Virus record (IMG/VR): IMGVR_UViG_3300042691_007854
Location: 1 to 22,327 of that record
Reading direction: 5' to 3' (one strand)
DNA: 22,327 nt
Origin: a virus
Part shown: in pieces, positions 1-22,327 of the stretch
Position numbering within the stretch: the stretch's first letter is position 1
How the letters are laid out: each line of letters starts with the position of its first letter
Made by a program: the position numbers and the translations under genes
The notes under the pieces: model-generated
Seen by the model: only the letters and a program-made list of their open reading frames with translations
What the model was told of the DNA's origin: nothing
Database searches by the model: none

Positions 1-1072
1 GTCCACCAAATGTGCCACCTTGTGTTCCACTAGTTCCGTAAATACCGAAACTATTAACGCATCCTCCTCCACCACCGCCACCATAATAAACTGGTAGACC
101 AGTGATTGAAGATATAACACCTATACCACCATCTCCTGCTCTTTCTGGGACTATAGAGCCACCATCAGTTCCAGGTGCTCCAGCACCTCCTCCACCACCA
201 GCAAGACCATATCCATTAGCGTTACCACCAGCAAATCCTAAACCACTGGTGCCCACAGCACCAGTCGCCCAACCATATCCACCTCCACCACCAGATGAGC
301 CAATTCCTGCAGCTGCTGGAGCAAGAGGACTTCCACCATAGTTTTGATGACTGATTACGCCAGATGCGCCATCTCCACCACCAAGTGCAGTGATACCAAA
401 AATAGAAGAGTCGCCACCATTTCTCGATTCTCTAAATGGAGCAGTGATAGTATTATCCCATCCTGAAGCACCAGTACCTACAGTAACTACCCAAGTGCCA
501 CTGGGAATAAAAATAGAACCTTGGACTACTGCTCCACCACCTCCTCCACCACCAGCAGAGTCTGTGCGAGTCCCATCTTTAACAGGAAAAGAAGAATTGT
601 ATCCTCCTCCGCCACCACCACCTGCACCAACTATAAGATACTCTACGTATCCACCAGTTTTAATGTAAAATGTGCTTGAAGATGTGAATGTGTGGATTTG
701 ATAGTCTGTCGGTGCACCATGAGATCTTCTCCAATAAGAAACACTACCACCTTCAGCTATGACCTGGGAATCTCTTAACTGATTTGTCATCTCATTCGTC
801 AAACCAGCTTGATTTCTACTTTGATTAAAGTAGTTTACATCGTTATCCCAACCACCAGCGACATTTTCGATTAACCATTTTTCCAAATGCCTAATGTTTA
901 CCTCGTCTAATAGTTCAACAGGTGCTCTTAGATTAAATGGGGCATATGGAAGTGGTGTTGTCCACCATCTTTCGACGTGCTCTTCGGTAGCCCCTTCTAC
1001 TAATTTTTTAGACCTCAAATAAAGAGCCGTTGCTTTAAATTTTGGATTTTTTAACTGATTCTGGTTGGACAT
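1..1072 (-). CDS. Glycine-rich tail-fibre/adhesin-like protein (C-terminus beyond window)
   Basis: The frame is open from ATG at 1072 to the window edge, about 357 residues, with no stop. Residues 1 to about 110 are non-repetitive and probably helical, with a WWTTPLP stretch followed by APVELLDE. Around residue 120 a segment reading YQIHTFTSSSTFYIK leads into VEYLIVGAGGGGGG, which resembles the start of glycine-rich domains in phage tail fibres and adhesins. The remainder is made of runs of 4 to 8 glycines separated by short beta-like segments. The start has an AAAGG ribosome site and lies 30 bases from a T4-type late promoter, which fits a virion protein made late. It probably acts in host recognition. 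The family is judged from composition and motifs, and the exact tail location is not visible. Confidence 0.75.
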   Translation of the reverse strand, partial: MSNQNQLKNPKFKATALYLRSKKLVEGATEEHVERWWTTPLPYAPFNLRAPVELLDEVNIRHLEKWLIENVAGGWDNDVNYFNQSRNQAGLTNEMTNQLRDSQVIAEGGSVSYWRRSHGAPTDYQIHTFTSSSTFYIKTGGYVEYLIVGAGGGGGGGYNSSFPVKDGTRTDSAGGGGGGGAVVQGSIFIPSGTWVVTVGTGASGWDNTITAPFRESRNGGDSSIFGITALGGGDGASGVISHQNYGGSPLAPAAAGIGSSGGGGGYGWATGAVGTSGLGFAGGNANGYGLAGGGGGAGAPGTDGGSIVPERAGDGGIGVISSITGLPVYYGGGGGGGCVNSFGIYGTSGTQGGTFGG

Positions 1073-1503: not shown

Positions 1504-2235
1504 TTATTTTCCTCCACTGAATGGGCATTTTCTTGCTTTTTTAAAAGTTCCAATAAAATAAGGTCTATGATTGCTAGAGTATTCTACCTTTCTATACTCA
1601 ATTTCATCTACCACAATAGGTTTCCACTCAACATCATAATCACTATCGAGACAAATCCATTGATACATAGGATAACAATAATCTAATTTAATCCTTCGTA
1701 TAATTGCTGGAATAAAAACATTAACATTTAATCCATGTTGATACTTGAAGTCAACTACTCCAGGAAGCATCTTTAAACCATAATCATTTAACAAATGATT
1801 GTATGATGGTTCAAATCCAAGAAATTTAACATCTTTATTACATTTAACTAGCCATGGAGATTCAAACTTAGCATGTCTCCAATTATTGAAGTTAAAATGT
1901 TCTGTTGCATATTGATTTTTTGGATGTTCGATAATAGGAGGCGAAAAATTATCAGCGAATTGCCATGTGTATGACTTTTCATTAACCTCAATTATTAGTT
2001 CAGACCACAATGGTTGTATATTTCCTTGTTGATATAGATCAATAAATCCAGCACAAGTTTTCATAGTATGTGTTGGCATTACCATCCCTTGCGGATTTGG
2101 CAGATTAAGTGCTTTGGGAACTGCTTTCCACCACTCAGGAATAAAAGCACTTGCTCTGGGTATACCAATTTCTGCTATTCTAGGAATTCTAGTAAAACAT
2201 TCAAGAATCAATTTTTTCTTTTTAAACAAAAACAT
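1504..2235 (-). CDS. Conserved phage-type hypothetical protein, 243 aa
   Basis: The frame could be extended upstream, but that would run through tRNA-Gly. ATG at 2235 has a good GAGGT ribosome site 5 bases upstream and is the likely start. The protein begins MFLFKKKKLILECFT, then has ASAFIPEWWKAVP, TCAGFIDLYQQGNIQPLWSELII, FESPWLVK and LPGVVDFKYQHGLNV. The pattern of an EWW motif near the N-terminus, then an SPW segment and a PGVVD segment, recalls a conserved hypothetical family of marine phages, and I know no function for it. There is no signal peptide. The C-terminus KKARKCPFSGGK is basic. It follows tRNA-Gly in the unit driven by the promoter at 2351-2379. Confidence 0.8.
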   Translation of the reverse strand: MFLFKKKKLILECFTRIPRIAEIGIPRASAFIPEWWKAVPKALNLPNPQGMVMPTHTMKTCAGFIDLYQQGNIQPLWSELIIEVNEKSYTWQFADNFSPPIIEHPKNQYATEHFNFNNWRHAKFESPWLVKCNKDVKFLGFEPSYNHLLNDYGLKMLPGVVDFKYQHGLNVNVFIPAIIRRIKLDYCYPMYQWICLDSDYDVEWKPIVVDEIEYRKVEYSSNHRPYFIGTFKKARKCPFSGGK

Positions 2236-3111: not shown

Positions 3112-3657
3112 TTATTTTATCCATACAAATGTCTGATCGAATACAGACATATTGTTTATTATATTGTTTTCTTTTCTAAACTGATCAACAACATGTTTTA
3201 TAGAATTGTAGTCATGACCAGAGAATATGCCACCAGTTTTAACCTTAGGATACCATCTATTTAGTTCTTCAAGAGCATGTTTTTGATTTATGTATGAGTC
3301 TACAAAAATAAAATCTAATTCATTATTTTCAATAAGATCTACAGAGTTCTCTGAAGTATCTTCTACAAATAATACTTTATTCTGTAAGCCTGTTGACATG
3401 ATATTGGTTAATGCACGAATTTTAACCTGCATTATCATATCTGAATCAACCACCATTGATTCTTCATCAATAGTATCAACATAAGGTTGATATGGATCTA
3501 TACCGTATAATGTTTTGATTCTTGGACAACACTCCAATAAAGAACAGAATGTATGTGCTTCCCATAATCCAATTTCGGCACCAACAATATGTTCCTGTGG
3601 TAGTAAATTGATTAAATGAATTATACTTTGTCCATCGGATTCTCTATAATTTATCAT
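3112..3657 (-). CDS. Class I SAM-dependent methyltransferase (Methyltransf_24-like)
   Basis: A Rossmann methyltransferase of about 181 residues. Motif I is VGAEIGLWEAHTF, followed by LYGIDPY with an acidic residue after strand 2, LFVEDTSENS, then LDFIFVDSYINQKHALEELNRWYPKVKTGGIFSGHDY. That last block (FVDs.H....L..D...W...L..GG...GHDY) is typical of the Methyltransf_24 group often found with sugar or glycan modification genes. I chose ATG at 3657, which overlaps the upstream stop as ATGA; an upstream TTG at 3669 is less likely. It forms an operon with the two oxygenases upstream and ends 12 bases before tRNA-Trp. The methyl acceptor is unknown. Confidence 0.85.
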   Translation of the reverse strand: MINYRESDGQSIIHLINLLPQEHIVGAEIGLWEAHTFCSLLECCPRIKTLYGIDPYQPYVDTIDEESMVVDSDMIMQVKIRALTNIMSTGLQNKVLFVEDTSENSVDLIENNELDFIFVDSYINQKHALEELNRWYPKVKTGGIFSGHDYNSIKHVVDQFRKENNIINNMSVFDQTFVWIK

Positions 3658-4289
3658 ATTGGTATCCAATGATTTATATCAATTAGATGATGTTGTTTAA
3701 GGAAAAGAATTTCGGTAGGAACGATATCAAATGCTACCGTTATTCTCGGTTCGTCAGAATGCCATTCACTGCTTCTATGTTTATCTCTACCGCTTGAACT
3801 AAGAACTAATAAGTTATTTTTACTCTCTACATGAATATCATCTTCTGGAACCTTTCTTCCATCTATTCTGTAAATAGTTTCAGAATTTGGTTCTACATTA
3901 ACACAATAAAACCCATGCCATGAATGATCATTAGTTGGCCAATGGCTATGCCAGTTAATAGCGTTACCTTTTTGATAGAAATTTACCCAGCATTGAATAT
4001 GATACTCGTCGAACAGTTGGACATTATGTTTCTTTTCTCTAATTATAAAATGGAAAGAATCTTTTATATTTTCGTAAAGGTTTGTCATTCCTGGGATAGG
4101 AGACATCAAATAATTATATTTTGAGAAGTATTTTGTTATTAATTGTTGGTCTTCATCTAAGTCTGGTACATCTGGTATGAATGTATCCATAACATAATTA
4201 TACATTATGTTGGCATTTCGCTTTTGTTGATACAGATCTAAATCTAGAATTCTAGTGTAGACATAATCATCAATCTCATTTATATCCAT
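3654..4289 (-). CDS. Putative 2OG-Fe(II) oxygenase, 211 aa
   Basis: The C-terminal half has the layout of a double-stranded beta-helix dioxygenase. WHSH at 113-116 gives a possible HxH in place of the usual HxD metal pair. This is followed by HGFYCVNV, a segment of about 35 residues, then KHRSSEWH (H171 or H177 as distal histidine) and PRITVAFDI, where R182 would bind 2-oxoglutarate. The family resembles the putative 2OG-Fe(II) oxygenases common in T4-like marine phages. The N-terminal 80 residues are helical and unassigned. The start at 4289 lies 8 bases after the next oxygenase gene, and the stop overlaps the methyltransferase start. The substrate is unknown. The iron ligand set is the least certain point. 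Confidence 0.65.
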   Translation of the reverse strand: MDINEIDDYVYTRILDLDLYQQKRNANIMYNYVMDTFIPDVPDLDEDQQLITKYFSKYNYLMSPIPGMTNLYENIKDSFHFIIREKKHNVQLFDEYHIQCWVNFYQKGNAINWHSHWPTNDHSWHGFYCVNVEPNSETIYRIDGRKVPEDDIHVESKNNLLVLSSSGRDKHRSSEWHSDEPRITVAFDIVPTEILFLKQHHLIDINHWIPI

Positions 4290-4297
4290 AATTATCT

Positions 4298-4906
4298 CTA
4301 GTTATAAAGAAAAGTATAATTTACTTTTCTGTTATTTTGTCCATCTTTGAATCTCGCCAGCTGTGACTCATGTTCAATATCAGAATAGAATATCATCGCT
4401 CTGTTATATCTGTATGGAATATGTACACTTTTATCTTTCGATACATGGATCAATACTCCATTATAATCATCAGAGGTTTCCTCAATACATTCGTCTGGTG
4501 TGCACCAAATGTTAAAGGTGATTTTTGCTTTAGGATCTATATGTCGTTGCACACTACTAACTTGTTTATTGTCATGAACGAACATCCAACCACGAGTATA
4601 TTCTAAATCTTTTAGACAATTAAATTTCTCTTTTATTTCTTCTGAAACATTTGTTAAAAGAGGGAACCATATATTCATACCATCTTTTGAAAAATTTATG
4701 GCAGTATAATCTTCATACTTATCATCATATTCATCTGCGTGTAAACCAAAATTTCTCAATCGCTGGCAGTATTCTTCTTTTAAAAAATTATCAACTATGG
4801 CAACTTTATTCTTTAAGAACTCAGCTTCAACATGGCTAAAATCGTTATTATTTAATACTGTGTCATCTAGTTTTTTATAGTTAAAAATGTCTTCACTAAT
4901 TATCAT
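4298..4906 (-). CDS. 2OG-Fe(II) oxygenase, 202 aa
   Basis: A canonical iron dioxygenase signature is visible. RHID at 121-124 gives the HxD pair (H122, D124), the distal histidine is H179 in DIEHES, and R193 in NNRKVNYTFLY is the likely 2-oxoglutarate ligand. Between them, KITFNIWCTPDE and NRAMIFYSD look like beta-helix strands. It is preceded by AIVDNFLKEEYCQRLRNF, a helix seen at the start of prolyl-hydroxylase-like folds. ATG at 4906 has a GGGGT ribosome site next to tRNA-Leu(UAG). It heads a three-gene block with the other oxygenase and the methyltransferase. The substrate is not predictable from sequence. Confidence 0.8.
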   Translation of the reverse strand: MIISEDIFNYKKLDDTVLNNNDFSHVEAEFLKNKVAIVDNFLKEEYCQRLRNFGLHADEYDDKYEDYTAINFSKDGMNIWFPLLTNVSEEIKEKFNCLKDLEYTRGWMFVHDNKQVSSVQRHIDPKAKITFNIWCTPDECIEETSDDYNGVLIHVSKDKSVHIPYRYNRAMIFYSDIEHESQLARFKDGQNNRKVNYTFLYN

Positions 4907-5020: not shown

Positions 5021-5098
5021 TGGTCCGAGTGGTAGGATTCGAACCTACGACCCTCTGCTCCCAAAGCAGATGCGCTAACCAGACTGCGCTACACTCGG
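5021..5098 (-). tRNA. tRNA-Pro(UGG)
   Basis: The acceptor CCGAGTG pairs with CACTCGG, the anticodon loop TTTGGGA reads UGG, discriminator A and CCA are present, and the T loop is GTTCGAATC. It begins three bases after the end of the AsnB-like gene, so the tRNA must be cut from that transcript. Confidence 0.95.
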
Positions 5099-5101
5099 CT
5101 A

Positions 5102-6637
5102 TTAAATTAAATTTCTATCTTTAAGATACTCTTCAAATTTAAATTCGTATCCATTGATTATAAATCTTTCTTTATTTGTAAAACTTACTAACTTCTGATT
5201 TCTAGTCAACCAATCTTCTATATGAAGATCTCCTCCACGTGTTTTTTCTACAAACTCTGTATCAGGATAAGCATCCTTGTATATTCTATCTCGTACATCA
5301 AATCCATTCATTTTAGTATTTTTATATTCTTCTAAGAATATAGGATTTCTGACGTATGACAATAGAGTCCTTGATGTAGTAAAATTATACCAGTCTGGAT
5401 TATGAAATTTAATAAACTCATTATTGTGTGGAATTGGTATTTTTCCATTAATCAATTTAAATTCTGATCCTGCCCCAGACAAGAATACTCCATTAAATCC
5501 ATTCTGTCTCTGACGATCCATTAACCAGTGCATATAATAGCTATTACATATTACATAAACTATGTTTTTATTTAATGACCAATCTAGAACTTGCGCATAG
5601 AATTTTGTTTCTTCGAGATAAATTGGTTCATGGGGTATTTTCCATTCTTTACAAAAACTAGTGCTCACTTCATTATTATAATCTGAGTAGTCAGCTGCAT
5701 GAACATAAGTTCCTGCATTAAATTTAATTCCCAATTCTATTAAACTTCTCGCTACAAATCTGCTATCATTTCCCCCACTAAAAATAACAAAAACATCTTT
5801 ACCTTTACATAAAGTATAAAAATGATCTAACACTTCTTGTTTAAAAGATTTCAAATTGTTTTCTACAGAAAAATCTATATCAATATCACATCTGTTAGTG
5901 TTCACAAAATAATAGTTTAATTTTTTATTTTGTTTAATATTGTCCAGATCTAACTCGAAATCTTCACTTATAAAAATGTTAGAATTAAGTTGTTTTAGTG
6001 TTGGTAAGACATTTTTATTAAAAGACTCTCTGATTTCTTTGTCGCTATCTTTAAGAGTTCTTCCATAATTTTCCTCTCTACATCTAGACAATAATAATCT
6101 ATTTGTAAATACATTAACAAATGACGTTCGTTCAGATAATAAAAATGGATCTGGTCTTAAATAAATTTTTTTATTTTCTATTTTATAATCTGAATTAAAT
6201 CCACTTAAAAATAATCCTACGTATCCAGTCTTTGATTTATGATCAATAAGATAATGTATGTAATAGGAAGTCAAAAGCTGGTAAATGACACCTCGGTGGG
6301 CATAATAGTTTATTTGGTTTAATATCGTTCTTCTACTAATAAAAACTATCTCGTAATCTATGTTATTTAAGATACAAAATTGTTTTTCGAGTCTACAATC
6401 AGAATTATCTCTTTTAAAAGATCCAATCAAACATGTGAAAGGTATGTTAAGTTCTAATAAGATATTTGCTAACAGTTTACTGTTTTGGTCACCATTAAAA
6501 AGAAGTGTTATATTATTTCTGTTGTAAATAGAATTTACGTAGACAAGCAACTCTTCTTTATATGATTTCAAATCATCAATATTAGAAGAATCTAATTCTA
6601 CAACAAATCTGTTATCGTGGACAAAACTATATTTCAT
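5102..6637 (-). CDS. Tandemly duplicated asparagine-synthase-like PP-loop protein
   Basis: This 511-residue protein consists of two homologous halves about 240 residues apart. The C-terminal half has an intact PP-loop SGGNDSR at 287-293 and an AsnB-like FLSGAGSE around S387. The N-terminal half carries the matching but degenerate NGDQNSK at 48-54 and LFLSGFNSD around S145. Other aligned pairs are SYYIHYLIDHK/SYYMHWLMDRQ and FTNRLLLS/TTSRTLLS. PP-loop ATP pyrophosphatases adenylate a substrate and then transfer an amide or sulfur group. No glutaminase domain is seen. The start at 6637 has no clear ribosome site and lies 13 bases from the 3' end of tRNA-Thr. The gene sits alone between tRNA genes. 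The acceptor molecule is unknown. Confidence 0.75.
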   Translation of the reverse strand: MKYSFVHDNRFVVELDSSNIDDLKSYKEELLVYVNSIYNRNNITLLFNGDQNSKLLANILLELNIPFTCLIGSFKRDNSDCRLEKQFCILNNIDYEIVFISRRTILNQINYYAHRGVIYQLLTSYYIHYLIDHKSKTGYVGLFLSGFNSDYKIENKKIYLRPDPFLLSERTSFVNVFTNRLLLSRCREENYGRTLKDSDKEIRESFNKNVLPTLKQLNSNIFISEDFELDLDNIKQNKKLNYYFVNTNRCDIDIDFSVENNLKSFKQEVLDHFYTLCKGKDVFVIFSGGNDSRFVARSLIELGIKFNAGTYVHAADYSDYNNEVSTSFCKEWKIPHEPIYLEETKFYAQVLDWSLNKNIVYVICNSYYMHWLMDRQRQNGFNGVFLSGAGSEFKLINGKIPIPHNNEFIKFHNPDWYNFTTSRTLLSYVRNPIFLEEYKNTKMNGFDVRDRIYKDAYPDTEFVEKTRGGDLHIEDWLTRNQKLVSFTNKERFIINGYEFKFEEYLKDRNLI

Positions 6638-6650
6638 AGTATGTATTTAT

Positions 6651-6724
6651 TGGTGCCCCGTGACAGAATCGAACTGCCAATAGATGATTACAAATCAACT
6701 GTTATACCATTTAACTAACAGGGC
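6651..6724 (-). tRNA. tRNA-Thr(UGU)
   Basis: The acceptor GCCCTGT pairs with ACGGGGC, with two G-U pairs. The anticodon loop TTTGTAA reads UGU, and the anticodon stem GTTGA/TCATC has one T-T mismatch. CCA is encoded. Confidence 0.9.
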
Positions 6725-8324: not shown

Positions 8325-8819
8325 TCAATGATCCACTTTGGTTGTAACAATGTTGCACTTTTCAAGAAATTCTAGTCCTGCAGTATCACGATATGAATTC
8401 CTATAGTAAACTTTCTTTATTCCAGCCCCATACATTATCTTAGCACAATGGATGCAGGGAGCATGAGTGCAAAATATATCTGCACCATTGCCACTATCAC
8501 CACTCTTTGCTAATTTACTAATTGCATTTGCTTCGGCATGGATTACTTCATCTTTTGTTTTTAAACGATACCAACCATTGTCAGTACCAGTGAATCCCAT
8601 TCGTTTCATTTCATCTGGAGATGGGATTTGTTCGTCGCCACCGACATATTCAGTATATTCACATTCATTAGACCAACCAGATGGCATACCATTATATCCA
8701 ATTGAGATGATACGATTGTCTTTTACGACAACCGCACCGACCTTTAATCTTCTGGCACTGGAAAGTTGAGCAAACCTCTCTGCAGTGTCCATAAATGCAT
8801 CTATCCACTTCTGTTTCAT
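8325..8819 (-). CDS. cd: dCMP deaminase
   Basis: This enzyme deaminates dCMP to dUMP, feeding dTMP synthesis in the host cytoplasm during phage replication. The 164-residue protein has VGAVVVKDNRIISIGYNGMP near the N-terminus and the zinc signature HAEANAI (H94, catalytic E96) followed by THAPCIHCAK (C122, C125). The 40-residue insert between these blocks, with NECEYTEYVGGDEQ, is as in T4-type dCMP deaminases. ATG at 8819 overlaps the stop of the secreted-protein gene as ATGA. Its place behind a cassette of exported proteins is unexpected, but it is common to all members of this long transcript. Confidence 0.93.
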   Translation of the reverse strand: MKQKWIDAFMDTAERFAQLSSARRLKVGAVVVKDNRIISIGYNGMPSGWSNECEYTEYVGGDEQIPSPDEMKRMGFTGTDNGWYRLKTKDEVIHAEANAISKLAKSGDSGNGADIFCTHAPCIHCAKIMYGAGIKKVYYRNSYRDTAGLEFLEKCNIVTTKVDH

Positions 8820-9826
8820 TGTAGGAATACCTTCACTTCTTTCATATTCTTTGCAATTTTATTATCTACTTTAAATCTAGGATTTATATTCTGAGTCTCA
8901 TCTACGTATAAAATTAATGCAGGTTGATTAAAAGTTTTCTTGTACGATTTAAAGAAGTTGTGATATCTTCTTTCTCCTGGATATACAAACTCGTATCCAG
9001 AAAAATCTAATTCAGCTTTGTATAGCAAGTGGTTGGCTCCATCTGCAATACCAACAACTACTACTTTTGGTGTTCTAGGTAACTTAGCGAAATCAACTCC
9101 AATGTTATTACACTCAATGAAACTACCACGTCTCCCAGAAAAACAGACCATCATTTCTTCCTTCATTTGGATATATTCTGGTTCTCCAAAAGCACCAACC
9201 AATACTGCAGCGACAGGATTGCTTCCTATCAAAGAGCTAACAATGCTACCATGAATGCTAGAATATGTATTCGTAGTAGTTGACCCCTTCTCATCAATCA
9301 CATGTGCAAATGATTTTATATCAGAGACCCACTTCGGCTGCAACTTCAAAGAAACATCAATACTTACTATGGTTTCTTCTCTGCCTATAACATAGGAAGG
9401 TTTACTCACGCTAACAGAAACTGCCTGATTGACATTATCTAATCTGTCAACAACTTTTCTTCGTTCCTCAAATTCTACAAACATTGGGGTAAATTCAGCA
9501 GACTGCTTATTGTGTATCCTATTATCTTTTTTAGGTTCTACATCAGCTAAAATAGTCACATGATGAAGACCATAGTCATCTCTATTACGTTGTATAACTT
9601 TATGAGATTTTATGATTCCTGCATTATATTGATCTATACTCTCGCTGTACTGTTTTTGTTTATAGTTTTTTTCGGATATAATAAACGTACTTGCAACCTG
9701 CTCAATGGCTTCTTGTTTAGCGTTTTGTAATGCAGAGTCGTAACTGTTTCCGACACCAGTAACAGTTACTTCCACTGCAAAAGCCACGCTAGATGATAAC
9801 ATCAAAGCGAGGGCTAATGTTTTCAT
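8816..9826 (-). CDS. Secreted FlgT/LPP20-like protein, 336 aa
   Basis: The N-terminus MKTLALALMLSSSVAFA is a classic Sec signal with cleavage after residue 17. Residues 18 to 100 resemble the FlgT N-terminal or LPP20 fold: VTVTGVGNSYDSALQNAKQ, an EAIEQV helix, then the ILADVEP strand. The rest has beta-rich segments and PNPAVLVG-like small-residue turns near residue 205, with two cysteines (CFSGRRGSFIEC) that may form a disulfide. It should act in the periplasm or at the outer membrane of a Gram-negative host. It overlaps both neighbours by ATGA. The downstream gene is dCMP deaminase. The function is not known; a link to curli-like or pore-like assemblies is only a guess. Confidence 0.7.
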   Translation of the reverse strand: MKTLALALMLSSSVAFAVEVTVTGVGNSYDSALQNAKQEAIEQVASTFIISEKNYKQKQYSESIDQYNAGIIKSHKVIQRNRDDYGLHHVTILADVEPKKDNRIHNKQSAEFTPMFVEFEERRKVVDRLDNVNQAVSVSVSKPSYVIGREETIVSIDVSLKLQPKWVSDIKSFAHVIDEKGSTTTNTYSSIHGSIVSSLIGSNPVAAVLVGAFGEPEYIQMKEEMMVCFSGRRGSFIECNNIGVDFAKLPRTPKVVVVGIADGANHLLYKAELDFSGYEFVYPGERRYHNFFKSYKKTFNQPALILYVDETQNINPRFKVDNKIAKNMKEVKVFLQ

Positions 9827-10368
9827 TGTGCGAAGGAATTCTTTAGCTGAGAGGCAACATTCATGGATCGTTTATCAACTTGTACGCTGACTGCGACGTT
9901 CTTTCCATCAGTAGAAACTTTTCGTTCTACAATATATGCACCACGAACTATACCATTGGCTTCGACAGCAATCTTCTCTTGAATCTTGGTTGTTAAATCA
10001 GCTGCTTTGCGTTTTGCATTACTGTCGTTTTCTTTCATATCAGCTGCAAGAGCATTGGTGATAGTTTCACTAGCCTTAGATGACTTGAGATCTGTCTGAA
10101 TAAATTCAACGATGTTACGCTTTGCACGCATAGCTGCAACATTCATACCTTGTTCGACACCAGCATCGTTCTCGATTGGAACAAATGATGTAGCAGAAGA
10201 TTTGATAGTTTCCCAGTCACCTCTGTCATTAAATGTAACTTCAACTTTACCAAAATCTCTTGCGTACTTATTTCCTTCTGGAGTTTGATCTACAGCAACT
10301 TTGGTAGTGGTACTGCAAGCACTCATTGTAAGTGCTAAGATTGATACAAGAACTAATCGCTTATTCAT
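9823..10368 (-). CDS. LPP20-like lipoprotein, 181 aa
   Basis: The N-terminus has a lipoprotein signal with TMSAC, so C18 is the likely lipidated residue. The mature protein begins STTTKVAVDQT and contains GMNVAAMRAKRNIVEFIQTDL at about 95, a helix typical of LPP20-type lipoproteins, then IVRGAYIVERKV and VAVSVQVDK strands. It would be anchored in a membrane and exposed to the periplasm or surface. ATG at 10368 has AAGGA 9 bases upstream. Its partner in the same operon is the FlgT-like secreted protein, which shares this fold type. Phage-encoded lipoproteins often block superinfection, but nothing here proves that role. Confidence 0.75.
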   Translation of the reverse strand: MNKRLVLVSILALTMSACSTTTKVAVDQTPEGNKYARDFGKVEVTFNDRGDWETIKSSATSFVPIENDAGVEQGMNVAAMRAKRNIVEFIQTDLKSSKASETITNALAADMKENDSNAKRKAADLTTKIQEKIAVEANGIVRGAYIVERKVSTDGKNVAVSVQVDKRSMNVASQLKNSFAQ

Positions 10369-10383
10369 AATATATTTTCCTTA

Positions 10384-10695
10384 TTAACGTAATGTATATG
10401 AGTATACTACTGCATCTGGTTTGTTATATGCTTCTATAACACGTTTACGCATCTCAGGGTCTGAGAGTTTGTAACCTAACCTGTCTGGGGACTTAGGGTC
10501 AACCAATCCCTGTTCCTCTTGTTTAACTTCAACAGGTGTAACAACTGACACATCATCTTGCTTAACTACAACAGGCACAACTGGTACAACAACTGGCATG
10601 GTAAATCTCGACTTTATAGAATTCCACTCAGTATTAAAATCGAGTGCCACAGCATTAGTCGAAACCAAACACAAGACTACTAAGGTGAATCTCAT
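10384..10695 (-). CDS. Small exported protein with Val/Pro-rich segment, 103 aa
   Basis: I do not recognise the family. MRFTLVVLCLVSTNAVA is a Sec signal with cleavage after residue 17. The mature part is about 86 residues: LDFNTEWNSIKSRF, then a valine/proline-rich stretch (MPVVVPVVPVVVK), an acidic linker, and a C-terminus of SDPEMRKRVIEAYNKPDAVVYSYTLR. ATG at 10695 overlaps the stop of the 42-residue membrane protein, with AAGGAG upstream. The context of two more exported proteins downstream suggests a joint envelope function. Confidence 0.75.
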   Translation of the reverse strand: MRFTLVVLCLVSTNAVALDFNTEWNSIKSRFTMPVVVPVVPVVVKQDDVSVVTPVEVKQEEQGLVDPKSPDRLGYKLSDPEMRKRVIEAYNKPDAVVYSYTLR

Positions 10696-20149: not shown

Positions 20150-20353
20150 TTATACGTTTCTTTCTAGTTGTTTTGCGATACTTCGCATTTTAATTAAATC
20201 AGAGGCACTTGGACCATTCTGTTTTTTTTCCAATTCAACTTTAATTTCTTCCTGTTCTTTAATTTTGTAATAAAACAAATAGGCTGAAATTAATACCATA
20301 ATTTCCAAAAGATAAAATATTAAAAATGATTCAAAAAATAAAGTTATCTCCAT
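20150..20353 (-). CDS. Small membrane protein, 67 aa
   Basis: MEITLFFESFLIFYLLEIMV begins a hydrophobic region to about residue 29, then comes a basic/acidic helix KIKEQEEIKVELEKKQNGPS and MRSIAKQLERNV. ATG at 20353 overlaps the stop of the large exported protein by 10 bases. Function unknown. Confidence 0.7.
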   Translation of the reverse strand: MEITLFFESFLIFYLLEIMVLISAYLFYYKIKEQEEIKVELEKKQNGPSASDLIKMRSIAKQLERNV

Positions 20354-22327
20354 TGTTGATTAACCATTTCTTCGTGTAATCTATCAGAACCACTAAACAT
20401 TCTACGAACACTAGTTGATTTGTTGTCAATTACTTCTTTACCATATTGCCTTTGTAATTGTCTTTGTAAAACATCAGGAACATTTGCCTGTGCATAGGTA
20501 TTAAATCCTGGAACAAAACTCATAGCACTAATCACATTTGGTTGAATTGCCACTTGACTTTCAAATGTCTTAGCAGATTCTACTCTACTCATTTCTTGTT
20601 TTGCTTTTTCATTTGATGCTTGCTTCATTTCAATATTAGATTTACCTTCATTAGTTCCAGATTTTTGTTCTCCTCGCTCTGCTCTTGGTTCTGTTCTGGA
20701 TTCCTGTTTAGGTTCTGCTCTTGCTGATTGTTGTGGCTGTTGCCTTTCGTTTGTGGATGCTGTATTTCTGGTTTCTGTTTTATTTGTTTGTTGCGTTTGA
20801 GCAGATCCTTGATTATTAGTATTTGTGTTAGCACTTTGTTGTCCTCCTGCTGGCGCTAATTGAACAGTAGCAGTAGCGTCTGGTGCGACAGATGTTGTTT
20901 TTGTTTCAATAACACCATCAACATTACTATCACCTGTTTTTGAAATTTCTGTTTTTACTCTACCATCGTTAGAAACAGTTGTAGTTGGTTCTGTTCTTGA
21001 TGGTTTACTTTCTGTCGTTTGAGTAGTGCTTGTATTATTCAATAAGTTTTTCTTAGCATACGCTTCTGCATATCCTGGACACGATTGAGAATATAAAGGA
21101 TTTAATGTACACTGTTGTGTTAAGTATGCCGATTGATAACCAGCACATGACTGAGAATATAAAGGATTAATATTACATTGCGCTTGAGTATATCCAGGAC
21201 ATGCTGGGTCAAATAATGGATTTAATGTGCATTGTTGTGTTTGATATGCAGCTGCATAGCCAGCACATGACTGACTTGATAATGGATTTGATATGCATGG
21301 GTCTGGTGTATAGACAGCACTACTCCACATATTGTTTATGGTTGCTGTTCCTAAAGTCCATTCTGACATAGCAAATGCACCAAGAGATGATATTGGTAAA
21401 GAAGAACTTAATCTGTAATTATTTGTGTAGTTACCACTAACTACATTGTTACCACCATTATGTGTTGTAGTGTCAGAGTATATGGTTGCATTGTTGCTAT
21501 CTGTAATAACAGTAGCTACACCAGCATCAGAATAGTTCCATCCTGTTAGACATAATCCAAATAAATCAAACATTGCGCATTGTCTTCCAGGAACATTATA
21601 CGAATAGCCATAATCAAATCCGTGGATAGTAGCACCAGCACCAGCAAAAGATAAAGCAGACGCTATTGCATACGCTTGTGTTCCTGATGTTCCTGGAAGT
21701 AAATTCCCACTTATTATTGCATTATATCCAGGACATGAAGGTGAGTAGCCTGGATTAGCAATACATGGATCTACTGTATACTGTAAACTTAATGATGGAT
21801 TACGAACTTGTGGTCCATAATATCCTGCCCAAAATTTAGCATCTTTACCTGTAAATGATAGTTCTAAATTAGATAAATTTGATAATGGATAATTTTGAGG
21901 AAACCACTCAGTGCCAGAATAATTTATAAATCCACCTGATTGTTGTGGGTAGTTATAATTATATGTTTGAAGAGCATTTCCCCCAGAATCTTTTAATATA
22001 ACTTTACCTGTTAATGTTCCATACTGCCCAGTTGCTGGATCATTGTTAATATTCCAAGAGTAATTATATCCACCGACTTGTATTCCTGTTCCAGACAATG
22101 CTTGATTGATGGCAATTGTTTGTGCAGCAGTAGCCATTGTGTAACCAAAAATTATAGTGTTAGTTCCAGGATTAAATGCTGGTGTGGTGCCACCAGAGAA
22201 TCCACCATTTTGACCTTGAACAGTTCCAGTCCAAGCATTTACTGTTGGATTTAATAAATTTTGTGATTGTGTATATGTTGAAATAGGAGATTGTTGAGCA
22301 AACACGCTACTACTGATTAATAACAAT
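20344..22327 (-). CDS. Large exported protein with Cys-repeat and duplicated beta domain (5' end outside window)
   Basis: The frame is open to the window edge, about 660 residues visible. The first visible codons end in a signal peptide (ISSSVFA, then QQS), so only a few residues are missing. Two similar beta-rich domains, at about 50-185 and 215-340, end each in YT.DPC. After them come C-x2-N-P-x5-C-x-G-Y repeats, then a linker rich in Q, N, T, S, R and E (about 430-580), and a conserved-looking end with SFVPGFNTYAQANVPDVLQRQLQR. It is probably a surface or virion-associated adhesin-type protein. No homologous domain name can be given with confidence. Confidence 0.8.
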   Translation of the reverse strand, partial: LLLISSSVFAQQSPISTYTQSQNLLNPTVNAWTGTVQGQNGGFSGGTTPAFNPGTNTIIFGYTMATAAQTIAINQALSGTGIQVGGYNYSWNINNDPATGQYGTLTGKVILKDSGGNALQTYNYNYPQQSGGFINYSGTEWFPQNYPLSNLSNLELSFTGKDAKFWAGYYGPQVRNPSLSLQYTVDPCIANPGYSPSCPGYNAIISGNLLPGTSGTQAYAIASALSFAGAGATIHGFDYGYSYNVPGRQCAMFDLFGLCLTGWNYSDAGVATVITDSNNATIYSDTTTHNGGNNVVSGNYTNNYRLSSSLPISSLGAFAMSEWTLGTATINNMWSSAVYTPDPCISNPLSSQSCAGYAAAYQTQQCTLNPLFDPACPGYTQAQCNINPLYSQSCAGYQSAYLTQQCTLNPLYSQSCPGYAEAYAKKNLLNNTSTTQTTESKPSRTEPTTTVSNDGRVKTEISKTGDSNVDGVIETKTTSVAPDATATVQLAPAGGQQSANTNTNNQGSAQTQQTNKTETRNTASTNERQQPQQSARAEPKQESRTEPRAERGEQKSGTNEGKSNIEMKQASNEKAKQEMSRVESAKTFESQVAIQPNVISAMSFVPGFNTYAQANVPDVLQRQLQRQYGKEVIDNKSTSVRRMFSGSDRLHEEMVNQQWR
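21049..21303 (-). repeat. Tandem C-x2-NP-x5-C-x-GY repeats (4 units)
   Basis: Four units with first cysteines at residues 344, 366, 384 and 406 of the visible protein, 22, 18 and 22 residues apart. Each has C-x2-N-P, then a second C ten residues after the first, then A/P-G-Y. A fifth, isolated unit stands at 21721-21765 after the first beta domain (C188). The DNA shows matching 54-66 base spacing. Confidence 0.85.

Follow-up and report, generated by a model that had tools for sequence, protein, structure and literature searches.

Beta-lactam synthetase and carbapenam synthetase belong to the AsnB-like enzymes and work without glutamine; both retain an N-terminal glutaminase-like domain, and their products are intramolecular amides. 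Enzymes of the AS family use ATP to adenylate a carboxylate, which is then attacked by ammonia, and the bacterial AS-like enzyme PesC of the nitrilobacillin clusters acts on the carboxylate of a ribosomal peptide after hydroxylation (PMC13060819). An active and a diverged PP-loop protein are paired in the eukaryotic tRNA thiolase Ctu1/Ctu2 (Ncs6/Ncs2), where the catalytic member is accompanied by a paralog thought to orient the substrate (PMC10067955). On glutaminase-less asparagine-synthetase-like proteins in tailed phages, no paper was found in the literature searched.

In the present study an open reading frame (ORF) of 511 amino acids was analyzed, in which two such synthetase domains are fused and which comes from one metagenomic contig, a 22,327-base IMG/VR virus record (the whole of it is called the window here). 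The source virus is probably a T4-like phage, as judged from its RNase H-like protein, which shares about 40% identity with its counterparts in cyanophages and in the Methylophilales phage Melnitz. With the synthetase domain of AsnB and human ASNS (PF00733) the phage protein shares the predicted fold as well as two motifs in matching order, the SGGxDS PP-loop and a related second one, but it is without the N-terminal glutaminase domain, is duplicated with one copy dead, and belongs to a family in which the Glu of the AsnB motif SGEGSDE is replaced by Ala or Cys. Beta-lactam and carbapenam synthetase have the same fold (Z about 13) but are not phage enzymes. The closest viral structure match, A0A6J7WV94 (281 aa), is about one domain long, with no fused degenerate copy, and its name is a putative annotation. 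Ctu1 and Ctu2, unlike the phage fusion, are separate proteins of another PP-loop branch, with Fe-S and Zn cysteines and a tRNA substrate. PesC resembles the phage case in that an AS-like enzyme stands alongside hydroxylases or oxygenases; however, it uses glutamine or ammonia, its peptide substrate is proven whereas that of the phage protein is a guess, and no fused dead copy has been described for it.

Results

Structure of the fused gene

The original prediction, made from the letters of the window without database searches and without a statement of strand, described a tandem protein whose halves resemble each other over their full length. The ORF proved to be real and to lie on the minus strand (Table 1), the plus strand across the same positions containing many stops, and codon-position GC is coding-like and alike in both halves. 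Residues 1-238 and 239-511 indeed align nearly end to end, with 65 of 223 positions identical in BLASTP (29%, E 1e-26) and a Smith-Waterman score of 252, compared with a mean of 38 +/- 6 and a maximum of 71 in 2000 shuffles. At 29% identity the halves are too divergent for the repeat to be an assembly duplication. Since no ATG start is present at the junction, both halves are read as a single chain; the nearest alternative starts, GTG245 and TTG262, are without an obvious ribosome-binding site.

Table 1. Features of the fused gene and of its surroundings (window coordinates).
Feature	Position	Strand	Remarks
Fused two-domain AsnB-like PP-loop ORF, 511 aa	5102..6637	-	stop 5102-5104
N-terminal half, residues 1-238; degenerate (pseudo-catalytic) copy	5924..6637	-	
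C-terminal half, residues 239-511; intact AsnB-like synthetase domain	5105..5923	-	
Degenerate PP-loop NGDQNS, residues 48-53	6479..6496	-	SGG[NC]DS in four intact close copies
N-half second motif SGFNSD, residues 145-150	6188..6205	-	
Intact PP-loop SGGNDS, residues 287-292	5762..5779	-	
C-half second motif SGAGSE, residues 387-392	5462..5479	-	paired by hhalign with AsnB SGEGSDE
DVRDRIYKDAYPDTEFVEKTRGGD, residues 447-470, invariant Lys465; absent from N half	5228..5299	-	
tRNA-Pro(tgg), directly downstream of ORF	5021..5098	-	
tRNA-Thr(tgt), directly upstream of ORF	6651..6724	-	
Weak phrog_1644/phrog_274 match, probably 2OG-oxygenase-like	4298..4906	-	
2OG-Fe(II) oxygenase-like	3654..4289	-	phrog_81, E 4e-8
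Methyltransf_24 methyltransferase	3112..3669	-	
Aspartyl/asparaginyl beta-hydroxylase-like, also in L006 and L093	7574..8287	-	PF05118, E 3.8e-7
phrog_7084-family protein; close homologs in L006, L061 and L093 phages	1504..2235	-	
Start of glycine-rich tail-fibre-like protein (Gly_rich_2 in L093)	2..1072	-	

The joining of an intact to a degenerate half, likewise foreseen, is reflected in the motif positions: an intact PP-loop occurs in the C half only, the N copy having lost its catalytic motifs, while a version of the second motif is found in both. In the model of the C half the SGGxDS loop follows the first core strand (strand 44-48, SGGNDS, helix 52-64), an order confined to this half. Overlooked earlier was the loss from the N half of a segment of about 28 amino acids, sited around DVRDRIYKDAYPDTEFVEKTRGG in the C half, which holds an Asp, an Arg, a Tyr and a Lys that are invariant in the four intact close copies, the Lys being conserved in a distant copy (L035) as well. 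Four of the six invariant residues of the PP-loop region and the invariant Lys are lost from the N half, which retains 26 of 54 residues that never vary among the four intact copies, including FLSG. That the N half has the fold of the C half is suggested by their sequence similarity. The segment with Lys465 is a candidate for the catalytic-Lys region of AsnB and lies in a stretch that hhalign aligned with low confidence. Across the close family the second motif reads SGAGSE, TGCGSE, SGCGME or SGACSE, a related form of SGxGxDE in which the DE pair is not kept either; the change of the AsnB Glu to Ala or Cys makes the formation of asparagine from aspartate unlikely. A conserved set of cysteines is not apparent, only Cys91 of the C half being kept throughout.

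Fold and family placement

An AlphaFold (AF2) model of the C half, built with eight natural sequences (pLDDT 78.3, pTM 0.80), was ranked against known structures by VIA-align, and the best 50 matches were listed; a single-sequence model of all 511 residues reached a pLDDT of 34 and was left out of the analysis. Human ASNS headed the ranking (Z 14.9 over 225 residues), followed by beta-lactam synthetase (Z 13.5), E. coli AsnB (Z 13.4 over 230 residues) and carbapenam synthetase (Z 13.3), and these four matches extend over 214-230 residues at an rmsd of 3.5-4.3, including the C-terminal helical part. LarE (Z 11.0, 165 residues), NAD synthetases (about 10), the nitrile synthetase ArtA (10.0), NcsA (9.7) and Cap9 (9.6) ranked lower, so that the AsnB/beta-lactam synthetase domain comes before LarE, the NAD and GMP synthetases and the tRNA thiolases. 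TilS was not among the best 50 matches listed, which excludes nothing. In BFVD the best match was A0A6J7WV94, a protein annotated as 'Asparagine synthase' from an uncultured Caudovirales phage, at 28% identity and an E of 6.7e-17.

In hhalign the family aligned with AsnB and human ASNS PP-loop to PP-loop and SGAGSE to SGEGSDE, with a probability of 84-86%. Against single E. coli sequences TilS scored above AsnB (81-89% over 70-72 columns around the PP-loop, compared with 12-13%); TilS, AsnB, GuaA, NadE and ThiI all exceeded six unrelated controls around the PP-loop, and QueC matched outside it. The best PDB sequence match of profile A3 was an NcsA chain (E 0.006). None of the curated family models passed its cut-off for the fused protein or its relatives: the PF00733 profile search proposed with the original prediction gave no hit to the window protein, the best score among the relatives being that of L061 (residues 35-151, E 0.045, 13.8 bits at a cut-off of 21), and for the TilS, NcsA-TtuA and QueC families there was weak similarity around the PP-loop only. 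As the PF00733 cut-off was not reached, the protein is AsnB-like by fold and not a Pfam member. Membership in the PP-loop (N-type ATP pyrophosphatase) superfamily is secure, and the assignment to the AsnB-like branch rests mainly on the predicted structure. The asparagine-synthase-like fold initially proposed is thus corroborated for the C half by the structural ranking and the BFVD match. The proposed lack of a glutaminase domain also stands, as there is no glutaminase match, each half corresponds to a synthetase domain, and the protein starts with MKYS and not with the catalytic N-terminal Cys of the AsnB glutaminase domain.

Relatives and history of the halves

Three single-domain homologs were first reached via neighbouring genes. 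An IMG/VR scan with the phrog_11311 gene gave 80 loci, among them L006 (277 aa) and L061 (284 aa), and a scan with phrog_7084 gave L093 (273 aa), which is 54% identical to the C half; all three have an intact PP-loop (SGGNDS or SGGCDS). When IMG/VR and GTDB genomes were scanned with patterns from the protein or from its alignments, short patterns being used for cellular genomes, no close relative was added. A tblastn search of 50,697 phage records, with the full protein, the C half or L006 as the query, gave none either, the match of the C half to MT835587 being noise without a corresponding ORF. L035 (SNGGDS) and L145 (SGGLDS) are distant homologs and L096 is a weaker candidate; L090 was dismissed, as it shares only the motif FSGGNDSR (family profile E 0.09-0.19). 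The 163.6 kb phage record of L093 yielded no second copy of the gene.

With the long L035 row left out, the C half groups with L093 (support 100/99), and the N half is placed outside this clade, nearest to L006, which it resembles in, e.g., QFC..N.I and the VLPTLKQLN tail. A recent tandem duplication, i.e., a clade of both halves, was rejected by the AU test (p 0.0022 with L035, 0.0003 without). The halves thus separated earlier than the C half and L093, although the long N branch (1.2-1.5 changes per site, compared with 0.25-0.84 in the other close copies) calls for caution. Under this order of events, either two older paralogs were joined in the fused gene or L093 was simplified.

Gene neighbourhood

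The window carries 14 tRNA genes, all relevant genes being on the minus strand, and the fused gene lies among them as had been noted, with tRNA-Thr and tRNA-Asn on one side and tRNA-Pro and tRNA-Leu on the other. The gene at 4298..4906 is regarded as oxygenase-like because in L093 an unequivocal phrog_81 oxygenase has a phrog_274 match as well. Further window genes encode a dCMP deaminase, a phrog_11311 protein, a 129-aa protein and a nucleoside triphosphate pyrophosphohydrolase-like protein. The PP-loop gene lies within the tRNA array in L006 and outside it in L061, L093 and L035. It begins three bases past the phrog_81 2OG oxygenase gene in L093, and in L061 a DUF6445 gene directly precedes it and it shares four bases with the start of phrog_7084; in both, an oxygenase-type gene comes first, then the PP-loop gene, phrog_7084 and a gene for a glycine-rich tail-fibre-like protein. 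That phrog_7084 is generally linked to PP-loop genes was not supported: in a motif scan of about 80 loci with distant phrog_7084 genes, PP-loop genes came up in L096 and L145 only.

L061 has, within its tRNA array, a BPL_N/class I GATase-like gene (117-740), a possible ammonia supplier.

Discussion

The data are best explained by a glutaminase-less, carboxylate-adenylating amide synthetase of AsnB type, in which an active-looking C half is fused to a dead-looking N scaffold, and this we consider likely. The C half would bind ATP at SGGNDS and adenylate a carboxylate with release of PPi, SGAGSE and the conserved Lys presumably lying near the acyl-adenylate, which ammonia or an amine would then attack to form the amide; the donor could be free ammonia, an amine, or ammonia supplied by another protein. 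The dead N half may have been kept as a scaffold that stands in for a homodimer partner or helps to hold a large substrate, and the internal pseudo-dimer originally envisaged, with the dead half aiding substrate binding, is plausible. The setting is most likely a small modification cassette of 2OG oxygenases, a methyltransferase and phrog_7084, and because it lies just before the tail fibre gene, the substrate is, at a first guess, a protein, peptide or glycan destined for the virion, the tail-fibre link being a guess from gene order. That the dead paralogous half derives from a single-domain lineage older than the nearest relative of the active half, serves as a built-in substrate-binding subunit and, together with the 2OG oxygenases and phrog_7084, tailors the tail fibre or another virion protein is, taken as a whole, a very improbable chain of assumptions. 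If virion proteins were the substrates, phages would possess a post-translational amidation chemistry. Moreover, the fused active/dead pair offers a compact system for probing what a pseudo-enzyme half contributes to a PP-loop enzyme, with single-domain natural relatives available for comparison.

Position among tRNA genes had suggested tRNA modification as one option. A TilS-, TtcA/NcsA- or QueC-like protein might act on the phage tRNAs with the dead half orienting the tRNA, for which Ctu1/Ctu2 would be a precedent (PMC10067955). The location within the array in the window and in L006, the TilS score against single sequences and the NcsA match of profile A3 would fit, but the gene is situated outside the array in L061, L093 and L035, no conserved cysteine set is apparent, and ASNS, AsnB and beta-lactam synthetase stand about 4 to 5 Z above NcsA in alignments that span the helical C-terminal part, which renders tRNA modification improbable. 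An amide or amidine synthetase without glutaminase might also act on a small molecule or nucleotide (a sugar, nucleobase or DNA precursor) in place of a protein. The small-molecule substrates of the AsnB, beta-lactam, NAD and GMP synthetases, all of the same fold, and the dCMP deaminase and pyrophosphohydrolase-like protein of the window speak for such a role; however, the window has no recognised sugar-nucleotide or deazapurine gene, and the neighbours that recur are 2OG oxygenases, phrog_7084 and the tail fibre, and we hold this role to be rather unlikely.

Compatible with either function of the C half is the view that the N half is decaying and the fusion a transient, functionless accident. 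Its long branch, lost PP-loop and deleted segment are what decay would leave behind, yet its 238 codons have stayed open and in frame since before the split of the C half and L093 in a gene-dense phage, nearly half of the invariant residues including FLSG persist, and codon-position GC does not set it apart from the C half, so that mere decay of the N half seems doubtful.

Other loci and window genes

PP-loop genes were also encountered elsewhere in phages. One phage contig (L096:8076-14994) has four of them, 328, 288, 392 and at least 339 aa long, with no Pfam match above the cut-off; close by are genes that appear from sequence to encode a 2OG-type and a Rieske-type oxygenase. At L145:3544-5471 a larger and a smaller PP-loop frame overlap as an unfused pair near a phrog_7084 gene. 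Larger phage proteins (371-398 aa) with (S/T)GGSDS after YDYL occur at L015:11818-13011, L017:7864-9057, L018:3955-5148 and L037:975-2087; these are faintly PAPS-reductase-like and without a Pfam match.

In the window itself, a long secreted-looking protein (20344-22326, minus strand) has short repeat units built around CxxNPxxxxSCxGY and a charged tail rich in glutamine and threonine; it matches no Pfam or PHROG family. At 8816-10695 (minus strand) lie three ORFs of 103, 181 and 336 aa that look secreted or lipoprotein-like and have no strong Pfam or PHROG match; two of the three have homologs in L041 and L043, and the three may be the counterparts of the curli CsgF/CsgG genes of phage Melnitz (L003:29046-30858).
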